This document shows positions 1-18,757 of a stretch of 26,148 bases of DNA, piece by piece. Under the pieces are notes generated by a model that made no database searches, had not been told where the DNA came from, and saw only the letters and a program-made list of their open reading frames with translations. This stretch comes from a virus, in IMG/VR virus record IMGVR_UViG_3300017773_000113, positions 1 to 26,148 of that record. One strand, given 5' to 3'. How positions within the stretch are numbered: position 1 is the stretch's first letter; every line of letters starts with the position of its first letter. The position numbers were made by a program, and so were the translations under genes.

Positions 1-120
1 AATAGACCTGCTTCGGCTCAATCTCTTCAAGGACAACGCCTTCAAGGTTCAACTCGCACTGGTGTTAAACCTTCAAACTATACTCGTGTAACTGGCACAT
101 TTGGCCGATACACTCAATGA
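1..120 (+). CDS. C-terminal fragment of upstream gene, possibly portal protein
   Basis: Frame 1 is open from the window edge and ends with TGA at 118-120, giving the last 39 residues of a protein. The tail is rich in Gln, Ser, Thr, Arg and Gly with few hydrophobic residues, so it looks like a disordered C-terminus. No catalytic or fold motif is visible. The portal call rests only on position: the gene directly before the scaffold/protease/capsid block in this type of genome is usually the portal, and no other portal candidate is in the window. Its stop codon overlaps the ribosome site of the next gene (TGAGGTG), so the two are probably translationally coupled. It could equally be another head gene. 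Confidence 0.4.
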   Translation, partial: NRPASAQSLQGQRLQGSTRTGVKPSNYTRVTGTFGRYTQ

Positions 121-129
121 GGTGATTAT

Positions 130-465
130 ATGACTGAACAATCGGATGCGGAACGATTGATGGGTGTCTTAATTACTAAGATGGAAAGCATGGATAACGA
201 CCTTGATTCTCTTAAAAGAGAAAATATGCGTCTTCAAAAAATGCTTTCAAATCCAACTCAAATGTTAAAGAAAATGGGTTTGGTTAAAGCGACTACTCCC
301 CTCACAGAAAATGTCATGAATGATGCATTCCGAAATGACATGAATGATGATTCTATTATGAAAGGTGTAAACTCTACAGTTCCTCAAACAAATGAAGAGT
401 TCCATAACATGTCGTGGGAAGATATTCACGAAATGGCATTAACAGCAAAAGAAACCGAGGTGTAA
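130..465 (+). CDS. Small coiled-coil protein carrying a scaffold-type C-terminal peptide
   Basis: This 111-residue protein starts at ATG 130 behind GAGGTGA at 119-125. Residues 8-45 form a likely coiled coil with spaced Leu/Met and alternating charges; the middle is Met- and Asn-rich. The C-terminal region, with N93-M-S-W-E-D-I-H-E-M-A103 at its core, closely matches the extreme C-terminus of the protease-scaffold protein (8380-8412), including a preceding V-P-x-T. That shared peptide suggests both proteins dock on the same partner, plausibly portal or capsid protein, or that this gene is a decayed copy of the scaffold tail. No known family was recognised. Its place between the putative portal and the head genes supports a head-assembly role, which is inference. 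Its TAA at 463-465 lies just before the next start at 468. Confidence 0.75.
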   Translation: MTEQSDAERLMGVLITKMESMDNDLDSLKRENMRLQKMLSNPTQMLKKMGLVKATTPLTENVMNDAFRNDMNDDSIMKGVNSTVPQTNEEFHNMSWEDIHEMALTAKETEV

Positions 466-467
466 AC

Positions 468-941
468 ATGAAGCCAAGATTTGAAGCAATTAGTTACGAA
501 GTAAAACAAATACTTGAAAAAGCAGAATCTATGACACTACGCATTGATAATATCCAAAAGGGAAAATGTGATTGCCCTAAAGGAGAATGTGATTGTAAAG
601 ACTGTCCAAGTTGCGGTTCTAAAATGAACAAGATGGGTTGCATGAAAATGGGCTGTGGTGGAAAGATGGCAAAGGCTGACCCTTTGGCTGACGCAAAACC
701 CATACCAAAAGAAAAAATCACCGATGTAAACCCACACTTGGTTACTGAAAGCGGCGGTCAAACAAAAACCGCTTACTATACTACAAACGGTAATACTATC
801 GAATATGAAGACGGTAAAGCAAAGCGAGATAAGCATGACAAGAAAGTTGACTTAGGTAAACTCGGCGGTCGTATGAACCCTCACGCTGGAACTGGTGCTG
901 AAAGAGAAGATGCAGAAGGCGGAACTGAACGAAGATATTGA
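468..941 (+). CDS. Cys- and Met-rich protein with an eight-cysteine cluster
   Basis: I chose ATG 468 over an upstream in-frame ATG at 414 because GAGGTG at 457-462 gives correct spacing and the longer version would run through the preceding gene. The protein has 157 residues. Residues 1-30 are probably helical. Residues 34-63 hold eight cysteines (34, 36, 41, 43, 46, 49, 58, 63) in CxC, CxC, CxxC and wider spacings, interleaved with many Lys, Met and Gly. That pattern is typical of metal binding and is denser than a single zinc ribbon. The remainder is hydrophilic, Gly-, Lys- and Asp-rich and probably disordered. It belongs to no family I recognise. Location among head genes suggests a virion or assembly protein. 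Zinc, copper or an iron-sulfur cluster are all possible ligands. Confidence 0.75.
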   Translation: MKPRFEAISYEVKQILEKAESMTLRIDNIQKGKCDCPKGECDCKDCPSCGSKMNKMGCMKMGCGGKMAKADPLADAKPIPKEKITDVNPHLVTESGGQTKTAYYTTNGNTIEYEDGKAKRDKHDKKVDLGKLGGRMNPHAGTGAEREDAEGGTERRY

Positions 942-1133: not shown

Positions 1134-4100
1134 ATGGTAGCAGAACAATTCAACATCGCAAAAGATGAACTTTTACTTTCTTTAGCAGATGGTAATGACT
1201 TAGCCTTTAGTGCCGCTGAATACATTATTGCGTGGGAGTCTCTTAACAAAGCCCCTACAGACTTACTTTCAAGGTCGTTAAAATACACGGCTGAAACAAT
1301 TCAAAAAGCCAAAGACGATGAAACATATGTAGAAGAAGACAAAACTTACAAACCGGGTCCGGGTTTTCTTCTTGCACATCACCATACACACGGTGAACAA
1401 ACAAATCACATTTGGAAAGACCGTTTAGCGGGTGCAGACGGGTTAAAAGAATCTCATGCTGTTTGGCCTCGGTATGTACCCACTACATCACATCCATATC
1501 GAGAACATAATTTTCCCTTTCACCATACTAATCACCCGATTTTGCGAATGGACTCCGAAACAGGTAATGCCGCTTATGTTGAAGTATTACGAAGTCACAT
1601 ATTTGGTGGACACGCTAAAGAAGAAGCGGAGATGGAAAAACAATATCAAAAATACTTACAAGAAAAGAAAAGTCCAATAGTATTTGGACATAATAAAAAG
1701 AAGATTTTAGGTTCATTAAGAACACATAAATCAAACCATACTCACCAACAAGATTTGTATGAGCGTGATTTTCAACGCTGGAATAAACTTAACAGTGAAT
1801 TGAAAGACAACTATCTTGCTGATGGTCGTTCAGCAGAAGAAACTGAAAATCGTTTGCGAGTGGACCACTTTAATCAACGAGCAAAACAATGGCAAAGTGA
1901 CGGTTATGTTACCGATGAAAATGGTGATGAACACGCTGTTGGATTAGGACAAGAGGGGTATCACCTCGGTCTTGAGTGGCTTAATCCCGAAGAACGCACT
2001 GCTGTTATGCGCCATATACACGAAAAAGGAGTTGATGAACATGATGATATTAAACTACCAAATGGTGAACATATTCCTACAGCAAGATTTACTTGGAATA
2101 ATTTAATGCGCCGTACACCCGAAATGAATTGGGCGTTAAGAGAAGCAGGGCATTACGGTCCAAACAGTCATTTCCGTCAAGAAAGTAATGAAGCCGACTT
2201 TAGACAAGGTGAAAATCGTTTCATGCAAGCGGCGTTTGGTGAAGCGGCGCATACATATGAAATAGGGGGTCAACCACTTTCACATTACATCACAGATGCA
2301 ATACACGACCTTCATGGTATAGAAATAGGTGATGAAGAAAATGAAGGTGTTGGTAAACCATTTGATGTCTTACCGAGGCTAAATACTCATTCAACCCCAA
2401 TTCAAGATAGTTATTCTTTACAAGACTTACGAAGTGGAACTTTTAGGCATTATAAAAAGACAAAGGGAATGGACCCGAAACATACCCGTATGCCAATGGA
2501 GGATATTTTATTTCTCGCTGGCTTTGACCCTAAAACACGAAAGCCGCTTCCTAATCATCCAATATACGGAGAGATGGATGGACCGATTATCCCACTTCAC
2601 GACTTAGAGCAAATGGAGTCGGAGGCTAAATCTCATGGCTCTTTAGAGCAAAAAGCAAAAGAAATTAGAACTGACCTTGCTTATCTACAATCTCCGCATG
2701 GCCCTCATCCCGATGAAGAAAAACCTCAACATTGGCAATTAGGTAAGGGTGGTAATCACACTGTAGGACCAGCAAAGTTTTGGAGTAAACCTTTTGCTCA
2801 AGTCGGTGGTGCTGGTTTATCGTTGGCTACATACGATGAAATTATTCACAGCACCACACATAATGAAGATGAATTAACAGAAGAAGAAAAAATCGAGCAA
2901 GCGTATGCAAACATAGCGAGTAATGAGCCTGTGGATATTACCGGTGGGCCGCAAACCGAAGACACTGCACACATTCCAACTCCATTTCAACAAAAAAAGA
3001 AAGACATGTTTTTCCCTTTAACTTCGGGGTTATTTGAAGTAAATGAGCAACATCATGGACAACTACACCCTAATGAAATAAACATGGCTTTGGGTATGCA
3101 CTTTGGCCCCGAAAAAGCAAGAGAGATAGGCACTTACGAAAAAGGCTTTGACAAAACAAAAAAGAAGTCATTTGATAAGTTTGTACGACATAATGATGCA
3201 GAACTTATTCAAAATATACTTTCACCGGCAAATACATTTACAAAATTAAGCGATGGTCGTAAACATAATTGGACACTCCATAAATCAACTTACAATCCCG
3301 ATTTAAAATACACACTTCGTAACATGACCCCTGCTGAAAAGAAAGAATACAAAGGATTAACATACATGAGTGATGTGATATCACATCATCCGTTGACTAC
3401 ATCACATCCACGAGCAACTTATGGTGCGAATACATCGGACACTTCATTACTTGAAAAAGCGAGAAAACAACACTGGCGAAAAACAATGTTGGGGCATACA
3501 AATGACCCATATAAGCCACAGAAAAACTCGGTTCAATCATTAAAAGATTTAGTAAACGGAAACATACCTGTAAGTTTTGGTGTGGACCATGAAGACTATA
3601 TGGATTTCATGGGTTGGGCTTCAAAATCTCAAAACTTTGCTAATGTTAAAAATTATATTACGAGTGCTGAAAGTGCAAAAAACATGCGTATTTTAACTGC
3701 AATAGCAAAAGAAGGTGGTAGTAATTCCCCTCATAGGGTTTTTAACAACATAGACAATATAACAGAAGATGACCCAATGTATGCAGACATTAAAAATCGC
3801 TTAGAGCAAGAAGGTTCTGCACTTAACGAAGGAGACTTAGAAGGATTTAAAACTTGGTTAAATGGTTTTGAGTTTCACCTTCAACAGCAGAAAGGTGAAA
3901 AAGCCAAAAGTACCAATCAGGTAAATCGAACCCGTATAAAACCTACAAAAGATACCACATTTACTACAAGTACAATTGATTCAGCATTAAAGTTCGGCGG
4001 TATGTTACCCGCAATGGAAAAAGAAACGCAATTGAATGAGCGATTAAACATTATTAGTGAAATGATTCAATACATGGATTCACCCGAACAGGTTCAAGCA

Positions 4101-6998
4101 CTGCGTCAAGAATTATATGAAGGGCAAGTAGAACTAAATAAATTACAACACCGTTCAACTCAAGCGGCTATTGGTAAAGGTGATAAGCGTTGGAAACAAA
4201 ATCCTAATATTACTGATAAAATTGCCAAGAACAGTCGTAATGCTGTCCTTGAAGCCGCAAAGCGATTATTACCAGTAGTTATGGAACATGACCCAAATCA
4301 TTTTGATATTAACGACCCGGAGAAGTTTATGGCAAATCATAACCGTTTGATGTATGACGCTGAACGATGGCTTGCAAATGCAGACCACAGTGTACACGGT
4401 ATCAAAGCGTCTGTTTACAGACAATCGTATGAAAGTAAAATGGTTGTTCCTCAACAAAAAGGTTTTCATCGTAATGTTATGAGTCATATGCTCGATAACG
4501 GTTTTGAGTTAAATGGTAATATGACACCCGATGAAGTCTTAGAAGGTATGGGCTTAGAAGGTAAAACAAGTGAACAAAAATCACGATTAAGAGAACATGT
4601 AAAGCAGTTAATTGATGAATCAAATGCAAGAGAAGTTCCGTTGCGTGTTGCGACTGTCGGACAGTTAATAACGAGTGGTAATTTTGATGACGAGTTTTCA
4701 CTTCATAGTATTCACGCTGATGAACAATTCACTCAAGACTATCAAGACAGTGGAATACACACTGCTATTGATAACGCTCAATCGAGAACTAAAAACTGGA
4801 AAGCGCATCCTATTCATAATATAGTAAGTGCTGTCGGACAGCACAGATTTAACTCATCGCAGTATGGTAGAAATATGTCAAACAACGGTTTATCCTATTA
4901 TCCAGCCGGTGGTAAACTCGATGTGCATAACAGATTAGGTGCTGGTAAAGGTGGTAAAAAACCATACACACGGAAAACAAAAAATCACCTTGATAGTATT
5001 GTAAGTTTAGATATTGATAGAGTGAATGAAGATAATTTGACACCTACTCAAGAAGATGTAAGAACTTTTGGTGTTAATGGTGAACCAGTTCCTATCGGCG
5101 GAGTCAACCCTTCCACTCACGGTATCATGCCTACACACACTGGTGCTGATGTAGTACACTCTTCTGCTGTTCCTCAACAGTCATCGTTTGGTGTTGAGTT
5201 TGATGCTCAAGGACAACCAACAGTTGGTACTTATACCGAACCTCAATTATTTCATCCTACTTGGCAAGGTGCATTAGAAGAACTCCACGGCACAGATATG
5301 ACAAAACAATTACTTGAATCAATGCCCCCACATCCTAATCCTATTCCACCTTTCATGGATTATGACAAAGAAACTTTTGATATAATCGGAGAAAACAACC
5401 CTACTGCTCTTAACTTGAGTGAAATGAGTGAATACATTACCTCTCTTTTGAACCCCGATGTCTTATTGACAAAAGCCGAGGATGCTGAATGGGTTCCTCC
5501 GGTAAGACCAATGCATCGTATATTCGATTTAAGTGACCTTGAACATCTACGAGGGTTCAGTGGCTCGTGGGTTGTAAGTAAATGGTATGATGGTAAGCGG
5601 GTTATTATCGTACAAAACGATAATGAGATTACTACCTATGATGAAAACGGGCGTAAGGTTGGATTAAAGAAAGCCTTCAAAGAAAGCCTTGCTGAATTAA
5701 ATGACAATAACTTTGTCATTGATGGTATTGTAGGTGAAGAAGATTTGAACATTATAGATATTATCAATTACGATGATACCAATGTTGCTGAAATGTTGAT
5801 GCACGAGCGCATGAAAGTTCTAAGAGGACAGTTTGATAGCCATGAAAATGTTATCATTCCGGGTCCACATGACACTAAAATGACTGATGATGAAGGTCTT
5901 GAAGATGCTGTTAAAATCTTACAAGAAGAACATGGTATAGTATTGTTACGAGATAACAAGTCCACATACATGAAGGGTGAGCGTCGTCATCCAAAGTGGT
6001 TGTTATTGCGTGAAAGCCGTGACTTTAACTTCATTGTTCTTGACCGTCGAGGTAAAGGCCCGTTCACTTACCGATTAGGTGCAGGGCCGATTCTTGATGG
6101 TGATGCGCTTGGTAATCGAGCGATTGAATACAAAAACCAATTCTACATGGATGTAGGCACAGCACATAATCAACAACGAACTTTCAAAGTTGGTGACATT
6201 GTAAGAGCAACTGTGACTGGTGTTACAAAGAAGCGTAGAAAAAACCGTGATGTGTTCAATGTTCAAGTTCGTGAAATTGAAAGTGAAGGAGAGGGTGAAG
6301 GTGCGGCCAGTGCCGAATCTCTTGATTTAATGACAAAATCTTTTGCACCTATACTAATCCCGCATGACTTAGAATACAATGATGGGGTAATACAAGTAAT
6401 ACTCAAAGACATTGATACTGTTTCATATCAAGTATCGAGAATCGAAGACCAATGGTATTTACATAATCCGTCTGCCGCATTAGGTGATTTAACAAAATCA
6501 AACTATTCTTTGACATTGGCGGAAAGTCTTCATCCTTATTGGCATACCTTAGCCCCACTTATGCTTGAGGGGCATCTTGTTAAAATGGAAATGATGGAGG
6601 AAAAACCCCCAAGTCGTGAAAGACAAGATAGGCAATCGGCGGGCGTACTTGAAGAAAAAGACGAAAACCGTTTACTTAAACCTTCAACAAAGAAAGCACT
6701 TGAAGTAATGAGTAGGGCTTTAGACCAACTCGCTAAAGAAAAGTTGACTTGGACTGGACCAAAGGGTTTGGGAATAGACATGGCGACACCTGTTGAATCT
6801 CCAAGCGGCCCTACAAGATTGACAGAAGAAAGCAATTTACCCGACTATGATGGCAAAAAAAGACCCGATGAACAAGAAAAAGATACTGATTCGGGCGATG
6901 ACAAGAAAAAGCCAGTTACACACATCGAAATGAAGACAGATGCAGACGAGTCTATCGTTTTAGACGACGAAGATGGCACTCCAACTCTTTCAGTGTGA
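1134..6998 (+). CDS. Giant 1954-residue head-cassette protein with a degenerate ATP-dependent DNA ligase-like domain
   Basis: ATG 1134 follows GGCGGTGA at 1122-1129. Residues 1-1450 match no family I know. They are unusually His-rich (for example H-H-H-T-H near residue 82), hydrophilic and without membrane segments. Residues about 1455-1720 align along their length with an ATP-dependent DNA ligase: an R-P-M lead-in near 1460, motif I as K1483-W-Y-D-G-K-R1489, an NG turn after it, motif III F1527-V-I-D-G-I, a segment resembling the motif IIIa neighbourhood ending in ERMKVL, motif IV H1600-G-I-V-L-L-R, motif V K1621-W-L-L-L-R, then an OB-fold-like F1684-K-V-G-D-I-V. The nucleophilic Lys and the motif III, IV and V acid and lysine positions are replaced, so nucleotidyl transfer is probably lost. 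The last 200 residues are charged and disordered. The slot between portal and protease is where minor or ejected head proteins usually lie. A virion role is inference. Confidence 0.85.
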   Translation: MVAEQFNIAKDELLLSLADGNDLAFSAAEYIIAWESLNKAPTDLLSRSLKYTAETIQKAKDDETYVEEDKTYKPGPGFLLAHHHTHGEQTNHIWKDRLAGADGLKESHAVWPRYVPTTSHPYREHNFPFHHTNHPILRMDSETGNAAYVEVLRSHIFGGHAKEEAEMEKQYQKYLQEKKSPIVFGHNKKKILGSLRTHKSNHTHQQDLYERDFQRWNKLNSELKDNYLADGRSAEETENRLRVDHFNQRAKQWQSDGYVTDENGDEHAVGLGQEGYHLGLEWLNPEERTAVMRHIHEKGVDEHDDIKLPNGEHIPTARFTWNNLMRRTPEMNWALREAGHYGPNSHFRQESNEADFRQGENRFMQAAFGEAAHTYEIGGQPLSHYITDAIHDLHGIEIGDEENEGVGKPFDVLPRLNTHSTPIQDSYSLQDLRSGTFRHYKKTKGMDPKHTRMPMEDILFLAGFDPKTRKPLPNHPIYGEMDGPIIPLHDLEQMESEAKSHGSLEQKAKEIRTDLAYLQSPHGPHPDEEKPQHWQLGKGGNHTVGPAKFWSKPFAQVGGAGLSLATYDEIIHSTTHNEDELTEEEKIEQAYANIASNEPVDITGGPQTEDTAHIPTPFQQKKKDMFFPLTSGLFEVNEQHHGQLHPNEINMALGMHFGPEKAREIGTYEKGFDKTKKKSFDKFVRHNDAELIQNILSPANTFTKLSDGRKHNWTLHKSTYNPDLKYTLRNMTPAEKKEYKGLTYMSDVISHHPLTTSHPRATYGANTSDTSLLEKARKQHWRKTMLGHTNDPYKPQKNSVQSLKDLVNGNIPVSFGVDHEDYMDFMGWASKSQNFANVKNYITSAESAKNMRILTAIAKEGGSNSPHRVFNNIDNITEDDPMYADIKNRLEQEGSALNEGDLEGFKTWLNGFEFHLQQQKGEKAKSTNQVNRTRIKPTKDTTFTTSTIDSALKFGGMLPAMEKETQLNERLNIISEMIQYMDSPEQVQALRQELYEGQVELNKLQHRSTQAAIGKGDKRWKQNPNITDKIAKNSRNAVLEAAKRLLPVVMEHDPNHFDINDPEKFMANHNRLMYDAERWLANADHSVHGIKASVYRQSYESKMVVPQQKGFHRNVMSHMLDNGFELNGNMTPDEVLEGMGLEGKTSEQKSRLREHVKQLIDESNAREVPLRVATVGQLITSGNFDDEFSLHSIHADEQFTQDYQDSGIHTAIDNAQSRTKNWKAHPIHNIVSAVGQHRFNSSQYGRNMSNNGLSYYPAGGKLDVHNRLGAGKGGKKPYTRKTKNHLDSIVSLDIDRVNEDNLTPTQEDVRTFGVNGEPVPIGGVNPSTHGIMPTHTGADVVHSSAVPQQSSFGVEFDAQGQPTVGTYTEPQLFHPTWQGALEELHGTDMTKQLLESMPPHPNPIPPFMDYDKETFDIIGENNPTALNLSEMSEYITSLLNPDVLLTKAEDAEWVPPVRPMHRIFDLSDLEHLRGFSGSWVVSKWYDGKRVIIVQNDNEITTYDENGRKVGLKKAFKESLAELNDNNFVIDGIVGEEDLNIIDIINYDDTNVAEMLMHERMKVLRGQFDSHENVIIPGPHDTKMTDDEGLEDAVKILQEEHGIVLLRDNKSTYMKGERRHPKWLLLRESRDFNFIVLDRRGKGPFTYRLGAGPILDGDALGNRAIEYKNQFYMDVGTAHNQQRTFKVGDIVRATVTGVTKKRRKNRDVFNVQVREIESEGEGEGAASAESLDLMTKSFAPILIPHDLEYNDGVIQVILKDIDTVSYQVSRIEDQWYLHNPSAALGDLTKSNYSLTLAESLHPYWHTLAPLMLEGHLVKMEMMEEKPPSRERQDRQSAGVLEEKDENRLLKPSTKKALEVMSRALDQLAKEKLTWTGPKGLGIDMATPVESPSGPTRLTEESNLPDYDGKKRPDEQEKDTDSGDDKKKPVTHIEMKTDADESIVLDDEDGTPTLSV

Positions 6999-7038
6999 AA
7001 GAAACCTTCTATATACCATGACAATGAATCGGAGGGTA

Positions 7039-8436
7039 ATGCTATCCCTTAAGCGACCTACCTCCGGCATTGCTCTCATCAAGGGCAGTTCCGATATGGT
7101 TATCGCTGGCTATGCATCAGTAGAACTGGTGGATAAGCAGGGCGACCTTATTACCCGTTCAGCACTAAAGGATGCGTTTGGCGGGTTCATGAAGAGTGAT
7201 AAGTTCCGCAATGTTCAACTTGCTCACTCAAATATTCAAGTGGGAGAAGTTATTGACTCCTATGTAGATTCAAATGGTCGGATGTGGAAGTCCGAAGTTG
7301 ATGATGCTGGTATGTTTGTCGTTGTTTCACTTCGCAACGATATTGAAAAGGCTCGTGAAGTGGCCGCAGAAATCCGTAAAGGAAACCTGCAAGGATTCTC
7401 CATTGGTGGACAAGCATTCAAGAGAGTGCGTAAATCGGATGGAGAACATGGAGACTACCAAGAAATTAGTAAAATGGAACTGCACGAAATTACGATATGT
7501 GAAAAAGGAATTAACCCCGAAGCACAGTTTCGTATTTTAAAGGAGGACACCCACATGACAACAGAAAATGATTTGAATAATGTAATGAGCAGACTTGAAG
7601 CACGACTTGACGCAATGGAGAAAGGTGAACTACCTCCGGCACTTGCGGCTTCTATGAAAGATAAAAAAGATGATTCCGAACCTAAAGAGGAAAAAGAAGA
7701 ATCTAAAAACCCATTCGCCGCTAAAGACAAAGACGAAGAAAAAGAGGATGATGACAAAATGAACTACGCAAAGAGTGAATACAGTGATGTTATAACCGCA
7801 GAATACCTAAACTGGATGGAGGACACCCTCAAATCCGCTGGTGTAAATACAATGCAAGCACGAACACACTTCGATAACTTGGAGAAGGCGCAACTTGGCG
7901 GCTTTGACAATCCCGATGCTGTTGACGGTGCAGACTACTTCGCTGGACAAGTCCGAGGTCGAGGTCAAGAAAACGGTTCACCTTCAACTGGTGCAATTTC
8001 AGCAATCACTTCAACTGGTGGTAAAACACCATCCGGCGCACTTGGACCTGTTTCAATGGCTAAGGGTTACATTAACCCAAGCAATGTTTCAGCATCCGAT
8101 GTTGAAGCCGCTTACGAAGTTTACAAAGCCGCCGCACTTGAACAAGGATTCCGTGGCGACCTTGAATCTCAATTCTCATCTCGCTTTGCTAATGAGCAAA
8201 ACATTGCAAAGCAAGAAGCCGAAAAAGCCGAGTTCGATGCTCGTGCGCCTCTCAATGAAGTTATGAAGTCAATTAACGCACTAAGTGAGCGCATTGACAA
8301 CATGACTGTCGAAGGCACTACAATTCAAAAGTCGGCTTCTTCATCTAATGTTGAAGTTCCATCCACGCAAGACTTGAGCAACATGTCTTGGGATGAAGTA
8401 CACAATCTCGCTGGTTCGGTTATCCGAGGGGCTTGA
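7039..8436 (+). CDS. HK97-type prohead protease fused to a scaffold-like C-terminal region
   Basis: Residues 1-165 are a prohead maturation protease of the S78/U35 kind. Visible features are a beta-rich GYASVELVDKQGD segment, the catalytic His in L-A-H63-S, the catalytic Ser in G-F-S121-I-G-G and the terminal E-L-H-E-I-T-I strand. Such enzymes cleave scaffold and capsid protein inside the procapsid. Residues 170-300 are a coiled coil and a Lys/Glu/Asp-rich stretch. The rest is helical and linker-like and ends with an N-M-S-W-D-E-V-H peptide. The start is uncertain: ATG 7039 has GGAGG at 7031-7035 with a short spacer, ATG 7018 and 7024 are in frame with poorer sites, and 6973 would overlap the previous gene. 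A strong internal start at 7555 probably yields free scaffold. Confidence 0.88.
   Translation: MLSLKRPTSGIALIKGSSDMVIAGYASVELVDKQGDLITRSALKDAFGGFMKSDKFRNVQLAHSNIQVGEVIDSYVDSNGRMWKSEVDDAGMFVVVSLRNDIEKAREVAAEIRKGNLQGFSIGGQAFKRVRKSDGEHGDYQEISKMELHEITICEKGINPEAQFRILKEDTHMTTENDLNNVMSRLEARLDAMEKGELPPALAASMKDKKDDSEPKEEKEESKNPFAAKDKDEEKEDDDKMNYAKSEYSDVITAEYLNWMEDTLKSAGVNTMQARTHFDNLEKAQLGGFDNPDAVDGADYFAGQVRGRGQENGSPSTGAISAITSTGGKTPSGALGPVSMAKGYINPSNVSASDVEAAYEVYKAAALEQGFRGDLESQFSSRFANEQNIAKQEAEKAEFDARAPLNEVMKSINALSERIDNMTVEGTTIQKSASSSNVEVPSTQDLSNMSWDEVHNLAGSVIRGA
7540..7557 (+). promoter_or_regulatory. Strong internal Shine-Dalgarno and in-frame start for scaffold
   Basis: AAGGAGG at 7540-7546 is followed after eight bases by ATG 7555, in frame with the protease gene. 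It is the best ribosome site in the window although it lies inside a gene, exactly where the protease domain ends and a coiled coil begins. It therefore probably sets a second translation product. Confidence 0.75.
7555..8436 (+). CDS. Nested in-frame scaffold protein (C-terminal product of the protease gene)
   Basis: Starting from ATG 7555, this 293-residue product lacks the whole protease domain. It opens with a Leu/Met/Glu/Arg coiled coil (about residues 5-30), then a highly charged stretch (about 35-70), then helical and Gly/Ser linker regions, and ends with the V-P-S-T ... N-M-S-W-D-E-V-H peptide. Assembly scaffolds are typically helical, charged, and carry a C-terminal capsid-binding tail. 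In phage lambda the scaffold Nu3 is made in the same way, from an in-frame start inside protease gene C. The strong internal ribosome site is direct evidence; scaffold identity is inferred from composition and position immediately before the capsid gene. The full-length form would then be the protease targeted to the procapsid by its scaffold tail. Confidence 0.65.
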   Translation: MTTENDLNNVMSRLEARLDAMEKGELPPALAASMKDKKDDSEPKEEKEESKNPFAAKDKDEEKEDDDKMNYAKSEYSDVITAEYLNWMEDTLKSAGVNTMQARTHFDNLEKAQLGGFDNPDAVDGADYFAGQVRGRGQENGSPSTGAISAITSTGGKTPSGALGPVSMAKGYINPSNVSASDVEAAYEVYKAAALEQGFRGDLESQFSSRFANEQNIAKQEAEKAEFDARAPLNEVMKSINALSERIDNMTVEGTTIQKSASSSNVEVPSTQDLSNMSWDEVHNLAGSVIRGA

Positions 8437-8467: not shown

Positions 8468-9568
8468 ATGGCACGAGACTACATACGAAGCGTAACTGAC
8501 ATGGAACGGTACTTTTACGGTGCTGGCAATGCAATGGGTTATTCCTACTCCGGTAGTGAATTACTCAAGGCAGATAGCCCCATGCTATCAAGCACAGCCG
8601 GAACATACCAAGCGATTTATGGTCGTAAAGTATGGTCGCAATTGAACCAAGAGTTCAACGCATTTTCAATTCTACCAAAGCGACCGTGGGAACGCAGTGG
8701 ATGGCGAGTCATCACTGCACGACCTTCGTTCACTGTTGGTGGCGGCGTTGCAGAAAACGCAACACTACCGGACACTACCAAACCTACCTTCCAACACATC
8801 GCCGCAAAGCCAAAGACGATTGTTCACACATTCGACATGAGCGAAACTGCAATGTTCCTTGCTGACAAGGATGACGGACTGGGCGACATTCGTTCAATCC
8901 TCAAAGAAGAAATGGGTAAGCACCACGCCGAGCATATTAACAAGATGCTTCTTGTTGACAAGGCTACTGCCGCTGGAAACGACTTTGAATCTCTTGACCG
9001 TATCACTACAGGTGCATCATCCAGTGCAAACGAAGACATCTACTCAATTGACCGAAGTGCAAACTCTTGGTCTTTGGCTGAACACGATGAGAACTCCGGC
9101 ACTGACCGAACTTTGTCTCTCGACCACTTGGACACTATCTTCCAAAAGTGCTGGACTCGTGGTGGCAATCCAAAGGTTATCCTCACTGGATATGACACCT
9201 TGATGCGACTTCAACAACTTCTCCAATCGCAACAGCGATTCATGGAGGAAAAGCGTATCACCCCTACCTACAACGGAGTTAAGGGTGTTCCGGGTATTGA
9301 AGCAGGTTTCATCGTTGCAACTTACAACGGCGTTCCTATCATCCCATCTAAGGATGTTCAAGCAGACACATTGAGCCGTATGTATTTCCTCGACACGGAT
9401 TACCTCTACTTCTCTACTGCTATCCCAACGCAATACTTTGAGTCCGGTATCGAAACCGGCGACCCATTCGCAATCAACCGTCTTGGACAAGAAGGAATGT
9501 ATCGAACTATGGGAGAACTATGGACTACTTTCTTCGGAGGACACGCTTCAATTCGTGACCTAAAGTGA
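8468..9568 (+). CDS. Probable major capsid protein (HK97 fold)
   Basis: This 366-residue product starts at ATG 8468, with GGAGAG at 8454-8459; an in-frame GTG at 8459 lies inside that site and is less likely. Identification rests on position directly after the protease-scaffold gene, on typical length, and on layout: an acidic and aromatic N-terminal arm, a long central alpha/beta body with strand-like segments such as the region around WRVITARPSF, a long glycine-spaced region, and a C-terminal strand with PFAINRLGQEG. About 1000 copies' worth of demand fits the dedicated A-rich leader in front. No unambiguous short motif exists for this fold, so confirmation needs profile or structure comparison. 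The next gene has a copy of the same leader, suggesting that it is another abundant head protein. Confidence 0.85.
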   Translation: MARDYIRSVTDMERYFYGAGNAMGYSYSGSELLKADSPMLSSTAGTYQAIYGRKVWSQLNQEFNAFSILPKRPWERSGWRVITARPSFTVGGGVAENATLPDTTKPTFQHIAAKPKTIVHTFDMSETAMFLADKDDGLGDIRSILKEEMGKHHAEHINKMLLVDKATAAGNDFESLDRITTGASSSANEDIYSIDRSANSWSLAEHDENSGTDRTLSLDHLDTIFQKCWTRGGNPKVILTGYDTLMRLQQLLQSQQRFMEEKRITPTYNGVKGVPGIEAGFIVATYNGVPIIPSKDVQADTLSRMYFLDTDYLYFSTAIPTQYFESGIETGDPFAINRLGQEGMYRTMGELWTTFFGGHASIRDLK

Positions 9569-17385: not shown

Positions 17386-17666
17386 GGGTCGAGAAGTTTC
17401 TTCGTAAAGATAAAATTGACAGTGAAAGTGATTTAACAACTCAAGTAGAACTTTGGGCCTATACAATCGCTAAACATTACTCAATATCTTTGCTTGAAGT
17501 TTACTCAATGCCCCCTCGGTTATTCAAGCAATCACTCGTTTGGGCGATGGTTGCGACCGAAGAAGAGAAAAAGAAAACCGAACATAGCAAACAACAGGCG
17601 AAGGCAGGTGACAGGGAGATGGTAAGTTTGGATTACTCGTTTTTAGATTGGGAGGGTACTGAATGA
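17382..17666 (+). CDS. Tail assembly chaperone 2 (T-domain-like; GTG start or frameshift product)
   Basis: The frame begins with GTG 17382 in a GTGA overlap with the preceding stop and encodes 94 residues. It sits in the -1 frame relative to the first chaperone, the same relation seen for gpG and gpGT of lambda-like phages. The product is helical and strongly charged (an N-terminal Lys/Asp/Glu stretch, an aromatic helix around VELWAYTIAKHYSI, a Lys/Glu-rich middle) and ends with YSFLDWEGTE. Such proteins bridge the tape measure and tube subunits. No ribosome site of quality precedes the GTG, so it is made either by coupled reinitiation or as a fusion through slippage at the G run upstream. 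It overlaps the tape-measure start by four bases (ATGA). Confidence 0.7.
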   Translation: MRVEKFLRKDKIDSESDLTTQVELWAYTIAKHYSISLLEVYSMPPRLFKQSLVWAMVATEEEKKKTEHSKQQAKAGDREMVSLDYSFLDWEGTE

Positions 17667-18757
17667 CACTCTTAGCCACACTCGCCTCCATGTCAACGAT
17701 GGTAAACGGTATCGGACCAGCGTTCAAAGGTATAGGCCAAATTGCAACGAAAATGTTTAGCGGCCTCAAAACATTCGTCAATGATAAGTTTTTCAAACCA
17801 ATTCAAGAAAAACTTGATGGATTAGGGGAGTGGTGGGAAGGATTTAAGACAAGTGCGGCAGATGTATGGCAATCAATACAGCAGTTTGCAGTTGATAATT
17901 TTTTTACACCAATCAGTGATTTACTAAAGTTTATTGGTACAGGATTTTTTGATTTTGGTAAAGGTGTTTTTGAGGTCTTTACAGACATATGGAACTTTGT
18001 AAATGATAATTTTTTCAGTCCTATTGGTGACGCAATATTATTTATTGGTACAGCGTTTTTTGATTTTGGTAAAGGTGTTTTTGATGTTTTCAAAGCCATG
18101 TGGGATTTTGCTGACTTTGTTTTTATTACACCAATATCAAAAGGAATATCATTTCTTATTGATTTAGTAGGTAATATTTGGGATTCATTACCTTCTTTAC
18201 CGGAGATATTTTCTTTGAAATATTGGATTGGGCTTGGTTTAGCAATCGGCACTTCAATTTTTGATGCCTTGAACGGTGTTGGTGATTTATTAGGTGATAT
18301 TTTTAGTATGGAAAACTTAAGTGATACTTTGGGTGGTGTAACTACTTTCTTGGGAGAGGCATTTAAGTTGGCTATCGAGCCGTTTAGAATAGGTATAAAC
18401 AGTTTACTTATTGATGTAATCAACGGTATAACTGGGTATCAATTACCTATTATTGGGGAGAGTCTTCGTTCAATTACAGGTTTTGGTGAAATCCCTCATC
18501 TCGCTAAAGGTGGTATCATCAACAAGCCTACACTCGCTATGATTGGTGAGGATGGGCCGGAGGCGGTTGTTCCCCTAAGCCAGCGCAACAACCCCAGTGG
18601 TGCTGGCATGGGCGGCGGTACATACAACATTACCGTCAATGCCGGAGGTATTACAGACCGCACAGACAAGCGAGCATTAGCAAGGGAGATTGGTAACATG
18701 ATTCAACAAGAACTTGCTCGCAGTATCGGCGGCTCAACCATGCGAGGGCGGTACTGA
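17663..18757 (+). CDS. Very short tail tape measure protein
   Basis: 364 residues starting in an ATGA overlap with the second chaperone. The C-terminal stretch at residues 281-306 is the conserved tape-measure tail motif: A-K-G-G-I-I-N-K-P-T-L-A-M-I-G-E-D-G-P-E-A-V-V-P-L. Residues 37-167 consist of repeats of about 37 residues built around an F-F-x-P-I box and an F-F-D-F-G-K-G-V-F box. Residues 185-275 are glycine-spaced, hydrophobic and helical. Tape measures fix tail length at roughly 1.5 angstroms per residue, so this one predicts a tail near 55 nm, short for this type; many relatives have over 700 residues. Downstream comes the distal tail protein by a one-base overlap. The coding is continuous, without evidence of a truncation. 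Confidence 0.85.
   Translation: MTLLATLASMSTMVNGIGPAFKGIGQIATKMFSGLKTFVNDKFFKPIQEKLDGLGEWWEGFKTSAADVWQSIQQFAVDNFFTPISDLLKFIGTGFFDFGKGVFEVFTDIWNFVNDNFFSPIGDAILFIGTAFFDFGKGVFDVFKAMWDFADFVFITPISKGISFLIDLVGNIWDSLPSLPEIFSLKYWIGLGLAIGTSIFDALNGVGDLLGDIFSMENLSDTLGGVTTFLGEAFKLAIEPFRIGINSLLIDVINGITGYQLPIIGESLRSITGFGEIPHLAKGGIINKPTLAMIGEDGPEAVVPLSQRNNPSGAGMGGGTYNITVNAGGITDRTDKRALAREIGNMIQQELARSIGGSTMRGRY
17888..18109 (+). repeat. Two adjacent 111-base repeats in the tape measure gene
   Basis: Units 17888-17998 and 17999-18109 encode residues 76-112 and 113-149. Both contain the box F-F-D-F-G-K-G-V-F, and parts are nearly identical at DNA level. A more diverged unit precedes (residues 37-75) and a partial one follows (150-167). 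Confidence 0.75.

Follow-up and report, generated by a model that had tools for sequence, protein, structure and literature searches.

In phage lambda, the protease-scaffold C and the scaffold Nu3 have a common C-terminus, arising from in-frame overlap of their genes. The herpesvirus protease-scaffold and scaffold (UL26 and UL26.5 in HSV-1) also have a common C-terminus, which binds the MCP and is cut off at the M site (PMC12474303), and the P22 scaffold binds its MCP through a small helix-turn-helix domain (PMC10275583). T4 uses capsid-targeting sequences, a short terminal peptide common to internal head proteins that are otherwise unrelated, IPI-III and Alt (PMC9026906, PMC7411985). For the SPN3US prohead protease gp245, a C-terminal propeptide has been proposed to target the protease into the prohead; in the SPN3US account consulted, no other protein is described as ending in that peptide, and the cleavage motif is T4-like rather than after lysine.

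Magroviruses are among the most abundant viruses of the ocean; to our knowledge, none has been cultured and in none is head assembly directly known. The DNA analysed here, referred to as the window, is a stretch of 26,148 nucleotides. Judged by its sequence, it represents part of the genome of a tailed virus, with the Druskaviridae as the nearest isolates and an MCP 35-37% identical to those of HVTV-1 and HCTV-1. A relation of the MCPs of Magrovirales-like viruses to those of the Druskaviridae is stated in the ICTV profile. A Cpn60/TCP1 chaperonin was encoded in all 15 related long contigs, and the window virus is consistent with the magroviruses of Poseidoniales; the hosts of the group are probably archaea. 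The type virus of the Aoguangviridae encodes MCM (ICTV profile). Since an MCM helicase was present in none of the 15 related contigs, which are possibly fragments or members of other magrovirus groups, no assignment to the Aoguangviridae was made.

The gene order of the head module in relatives was portal, 118-aa protein, p111, Cys-rich protein, small ORF, 1954-aa protein, protease-scaffold and MCP. The window starts inside the gene for the 118-aa protein and contains the following genes of this module:

1-120, plus strand: C-terminal part of the 118-aa small head protein, which lies between portal and p111 in relatives (full gene, L015 9634-9990)
130-465, plus strand: ORF for p111, a 111-aa coiled-coil head protein of no known family (59 diverse homologues aligned)
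468-941, plus strand: 157-aa Cys-rich head-module protein with no docking tail (K18, K31 and K69 conserved in hxK[AG] among 41 homologues)
1134-6998, plus strand: 1954-aa head-module protein with a weak DNA-ligase-like domain at residues ~1541-1623 (Pfam E 0.015, below the cut-off)
7018-8436, plus strand: 472-aa prohead protease (S78) fused to a scaffold (Pfam Peptidase_S78, PF04586, 1.1e-9)
8468-9568, plus strand: MCP, SU10-type, of the HK97 fold family (Pfam SU10_MCP 8.1e-13; phrog_24667 3.1e-62)

The protease-scaffold matched the head maturation protease family of PHROG (1.8e-15), and the AlphaFold2 model of the protease matched T4 gp21 (5jbl; E 2.9e-4, prob 1.00); its sequence profile had no match among PDB sequences. 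Residues H70, S128 and H156 were invariant in 41 homologues and are candidates for the catalytic Ser and His. In the model, the protease domain is followed by a linker, a long helix (359-405) and the tail. No match to p111 was found among 50,697 phage records of isolates. In PHROG the window protein was unmatched and its relatives gave weak, scattered matches, and searches of PDB sequences returned nothing beyond weak matches of coiled-coil type. The structure prediction for the MCP was useless (mean pLDDT 32.8). The Cys-rich protein contains a dense Cys cluster (KCDCPKGECDCKDCPSCGSKMNKMGCMKMGCGGK) and metal binding is likely, and the weak ligase-like domain of the 1954-aa protein contains the sequence KWYDG.

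The C-terminal ends of p111 and the protease-scaffold were found to be alike, in the following segments:

364-462, plus strand: 33-residue C-terminal tail of p111, with a predicted cleavable docking role, matching the scaffold tail (hhalign E 4.5e-8)
406-438, plus strand: motif NMSWEDIHEMA, residues 93-103 of the 111 of p111, with a predicted docking role
8332-8433, plus strand: 34-residue C-terminal tail of the protease-scaffold, with predicted helices at 450-454 and 458-470
8380-8412, plus strand: motif NMSWDEVHNLA, residues 455-465 of the 472 of the protease-scaffold, with the same predicted role

These are exactly the positions at which the original prediction had placed the two peptides. 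The motif is followed by eight residues before the stop in p111 and by seven in the protease-scaffold. When all pairs of the 21 C-terminal 40-mers of the window were compared, this pair had a local alignment score of 58, the next-best pair scored at most 32, and 20,000 shuffles reached a maximum of 44 and never 58. The likeness of the two tails is not due to chance. Profile-profile comparison of 59 p111 proteins with 41 scaffold parts gave a single region of similarity (E 4.5e-8) of 36 columns, which starts at I-x-K-[SG] and extends to the helix end. Once the tails were removed the E-value was 0.24, so broader homology between p111 and the scaffold is unsupported. The common architecture consists of hxK[SAG], a linker, and then M-x-W-[DE]-[DE]-[I/V]-H-x-[LM]-A close to the C-terminus. 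The p111 gene is distinct from the protease-scaffold gene and lies some 6.5 kb upstream of it, and the similarity is confined to the tail.

It had been claimed that the same C-terminal peptide occurs on two separate head proteins, and both the profile match and the conservation of the peptide in each family bear this out. The shared part, described as 11 residues long, does include that motif and is longer, beginning at the upstream I-x-K. A V-P-x-T element had also been assigned to both proteins; its P is invariant in the scaffold only, and the matching invariants of p111 are N88 and H92. Over as few as 36 columns, the likeness of the two tails may reflect either common ancestry or convergence on one receptor. 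On its own, M-x-W-[DE]-[DE]-[I/V]-H-x-[LM]-A is an ordinary helix pattern; what is special is its position at the end of exactly two head proteins.

The core of both ends was retained in relatives (59 p111 proteins and 41 scaffolds). The residues K78, N88, H92, W96, I99, H100 and A103 were invariant in the p111 homologues, with Met at position 94 in 58 of 59, and K438, P448, M456, W458, V461, H462 and A465 were invariant in the scaffolds. Mean pairwise identity was 0.66 across residues 88-103 of p111, compared to 0.39 just upstream and 0.26 downstream; for residues 448-465 of the scaffold it was 0.70, with flanks at 0.50 and 0.31. The two families differ by Ile in 59/59 p111 proteins and Val in 41/41 protease-scaffolds. 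Because this difference is fixed, the two copies of the tail are old and each is under its own selection, and recent duplication or gene conversion is ruled out. The two DNA copies of the motif were identical at 24 of 33 bases, counted from the sequence, and the motif codons varied freely at synonymous sites. These results agree with the proposal of a protein-level match with changed codons and no recent duplication; given the synonymous variation, a DNA or RNA element at the motif is unsupported.

To define how exclusive the motif is, IMG/VR relatives were collected (27 loci for p111 and 80 for the MCP), and both tails were retained throughout. A DNA-pattern scan of all IMG/VR viral contigs for M.W[DE][DE][VI]H.[LM]A identified at least 119 stretches. 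Among the matches listed, all 84 motif ORFs in the 79 newly kept loci belonged to the p111 family (25) or the protease-scaffold family (59), the distance from motif to stop was always 6-14 residues, and the p111 proteins extended to only ~35% identity with that of the window. Of 22 long contigs (50-108 kb), 20 contained a looser pattern, M.W..[VI]H..A, exactly twice, on one strand and ~7-8 kb apart. The other two contigs had a single match, and the second gene would fall past the contig end; a reversed control pattern had no match in the 22 contigs. Across 257 Gb of cellular genomes, 35 matches to the stricter pattern were recorded, which is the chance level, and none ended a protein-sized ORF; the three that lay within 20 residues of a stop were in spurious frames of 13-20 codons. 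Neither of the two conditions that would have refuted the original prediction thus held: the ends do show shared conservation in relatives, and the motif is not common in other proteins, among the matches listed for viral contigs and at protein ends in cellular genomes. The portal sequence, read directly in relatives, had no such tail, and no description of the shared tail was found in the literature searched. As a separate observation, an internal mimic, MGWxEVHxIAE(Q), recurs in small (~220-aa) Bacteroidota proteins (loci L234, L238, L244, L246, L248, L250, L252, L254-L256, L259, L263 and L264) and is an unrelated look-alike.

An invariant lysine, in a context resembling a protease site, stands before each tail; with this feature, which had been missed, what was described as a simple tag is probably a removable one. 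Three such sites are predicted in the window (a slash marks the cut):

361-363, plus strand: K78 codon of p111, predicted site SIMK/GVNS (K invariant in 59; hxK[ASG] in 87-90%)
8329-8331, plus strand: K438 codon of the protease-scaffold, predicted site TIQK/SASS before the tail (invariant in 41; hxK[ASG] in 45/45)
8567-8569, plus strand: K34 codon of the MCP, predicted maturation site ELLK/AD (L33-K34-A35-D36 invariant in 36 MCPs)

In p111, the Cys-rich protein and the protease-scaffold, 14 of 26 conserved lysines were in hxK[ASG], compared to 1 of 85 other conserved residues (R/E/D/N/Q/S/T) in that context (Fisher p 6e-10); for conserved lysines of 14 other window proteins, mainly of the tail, the figure was 3 of 34 (p 3e-4). 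The scaffold part alone had six of its eight conserved lysines in this context, and the portal one of 16. The 118-aa protein is a further predicted protease substrate, since K56 (upstream of the window) was Lys in 49/49 homologues and in hxK[ASG] in 46/49. The 1954-aa protein, which could be packaged and then released by the protease, had conserved LxTK[SA] at 1447 and 1735, with LxTK/S at 1735 in 89% of homologues. The position of MCP K34 aligned with K102 of HVTV-1 and K103 of HCTV-1, each followed by AD. The cut that the HK97 protease makes in its MCP, at K103/S104, falls within an unstructured region (PMC10275583). On this pattern of conservation, the hxK/[ASG] context, which precedes both tails and recurs at MCP K34 and in further head proteins, probably marks where the prohead protease cuts. 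Of the ten hxK[ASG] lysines in the protease-scaffold, however, four are within the protease domain, and K370 is in a confident helix; not all of these lysines can therefore be cut, and hxK[ASG] alone is not sufficient. In HVTV-1 and HCTV-1 (L227, L228), the MCP has an N-terminal extension of ~102 residues with four hxK[AS] sites.

Taking the observed features together, we put the probability at roughly 60% that a C-terminal capsid-docking tail, removable by the protease, is shared in trans between the protease-scaffold and a second head protein, a small coiled coil of the core or scaffold. The binding, its partner, the cleavage and the order of events are what we infer from those features. Through the amphipathic helix M-x-W-[DE]-[DE]-[I/V]-H-x-[LM]-A, both proteins would attach to a single type of site inside the assembling shell, with the inner face of the MCP the most likely candidate and the portal a less likely one, and would thereby enter the procapsid, the protease-scaffold bringing the enzyme and the coiled coil of p111 serving as a small core or scaffold protein. 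After shell closure, the protease would cut after the invariant Lys ~33 residues from each C-terminus, releasing protease, scaffold and core protein from the shell for digestion and exit. Other small head proteins would be cleaved with this specificity too, and the MCP would lose its N-terminus at K34. The MCP is favoured as partner because scaffold C-termini bind the MCP in herpesviruses and, by way of a small helix-turn-helix, in P22. In the scaffold model the predicted tail helices (mean pLDDT 63-84 across 441-470) follow a disordered linker (residues 430-443, pLDDT <50) that contains K438, which supports a docking tail; against it, known stand-alone scaffolds are far longer than p111. The Ile/Val difference, together with N88 and H92 of p111 and P448 of the scaffold, could mean two related but distinct binding sites.

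Docking of the tail to the portal or a portal-bound core, with p111 as the first-made core protein starting portal-vertex assembly together with the protease-scaffold, is possible but unlikely. In T4 the gene order is portal, small core proteins, protease, scaffold and capsid, and the separation of p111 from the portal gene by one small gene resembles it. The position of p111 is presumably the one where T4 keeps gp67 and gp68, which are core proteins digested by gp21 (PMC9958956). However, where the partner of a scaffold C-terminus is known, as in P22 and herpesviruses, it is the capsid protein, and in herpesviruses the scaffold uses a different region to bind the portal (PMC12474303). The presence of the same amphipathic helix on both proteins would also suit tails that pair with one another or occupy a shared site in the core of the scaffold, the helix being homotypic and mixing p111 into the core with no shell contact, and the T4 capsid-targeting sequences do act via the core (PMC7411985). 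Self-pairing should, however, keep a hydrophobic repeat, whereas the single W, H and A are invariant, as might be expected of a peptide that fits a fixed pocket, and we regard this arrangement as improbable. It is most improbable that the motif serves the protease domain as a substrate or pseudo-substrate signal instead of acting in docking, for although p111 and the scaffold both bear the tail and are both predicted to be cut, the 118-aa protein, the Cys-rich protein and the MCP have hxK[ASG] without M-x-W-x-x-[VI]-H, and there is no lysine within the motif.

By analogy, the proposed docking tail would work like the herpesvirus UL26/UL26.5 tail and the T4 capsid-targeting sequences while being a member of neither group. 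As in HSV-1, a protease is fused to a scaffold, a second protein has the same C-terminal tail, and a protease site (predicted here) lies 25-35 residues before the C-terminus in both. The herpesvirus tails, however, are identical through in-frame gene overlap, and the second protein is identical to the scaffold in the same frame; here the genes are unlinked, the tails are homologous but distinct, and the second protein is a 111-aa coiled coil unrelated to the scaffold outside the tail. The separate genes also differ from the overlap of lambda C and Nu3. Similar to T4, a short peptide is present on several internal head proteins, two per genome, and adjoins a prohead-protease site, which is predicted here. 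In contrast, the T4 tags are N-terminal, ~10-20 residues long and carried by cargo, whereas these tails are C-terminal and common to the protease-scaffold itself. The Druskaviridae (HVTV-1, HCTV-1 and HCTV-5) have the related MCP with KAD at the homologous position and an S78 protease with hxK/S ~25 residues from its C-terminus; they differ in having no M-x-W motif in the head proteins examined and no p111 homologue.

If the docking-tail reading is true, the locus would be a two-gene counterpart of the overlapping-gene arrangement of herpesviruses and lambda, and would give archaeal viruses a parallel to the capsid assembly of herpesviruses, one where common docking came about with no gene overlap. 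The odds are about even for the wider proposal of a transferable, protease-removable C-terminal capsid-entry tag on unlinked genes in this abundant group of archaeal viruses, with one procapsid receptor site and a maturation protease specific for lysine, the substrates of which are recognizable in the sequence. A tag found twice per genome with an invariant core would name the partner protein of the scaffold and predict the docking peptide, and hxK/[ASG] would offer a testable protease specificity from which the substrates, and with them the MCP maturation site, could be listed. Such capsids might also be loaded with cargo by means of this tail.

Two further observations were made outside the genes discussed above. 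A 364-aa protein (window 17663-18757) matched tail tape-measure families (phrog_1535, E 6e-19) and is short for a long-tailed virus. The ORF just upstream of the portal in relatives (L015 6508-7806, L020 6520-7833) has a LAGLIDADG-like stretch (AGFLDADGSIFISERG), which suggests a homing endonuclease or an intein.
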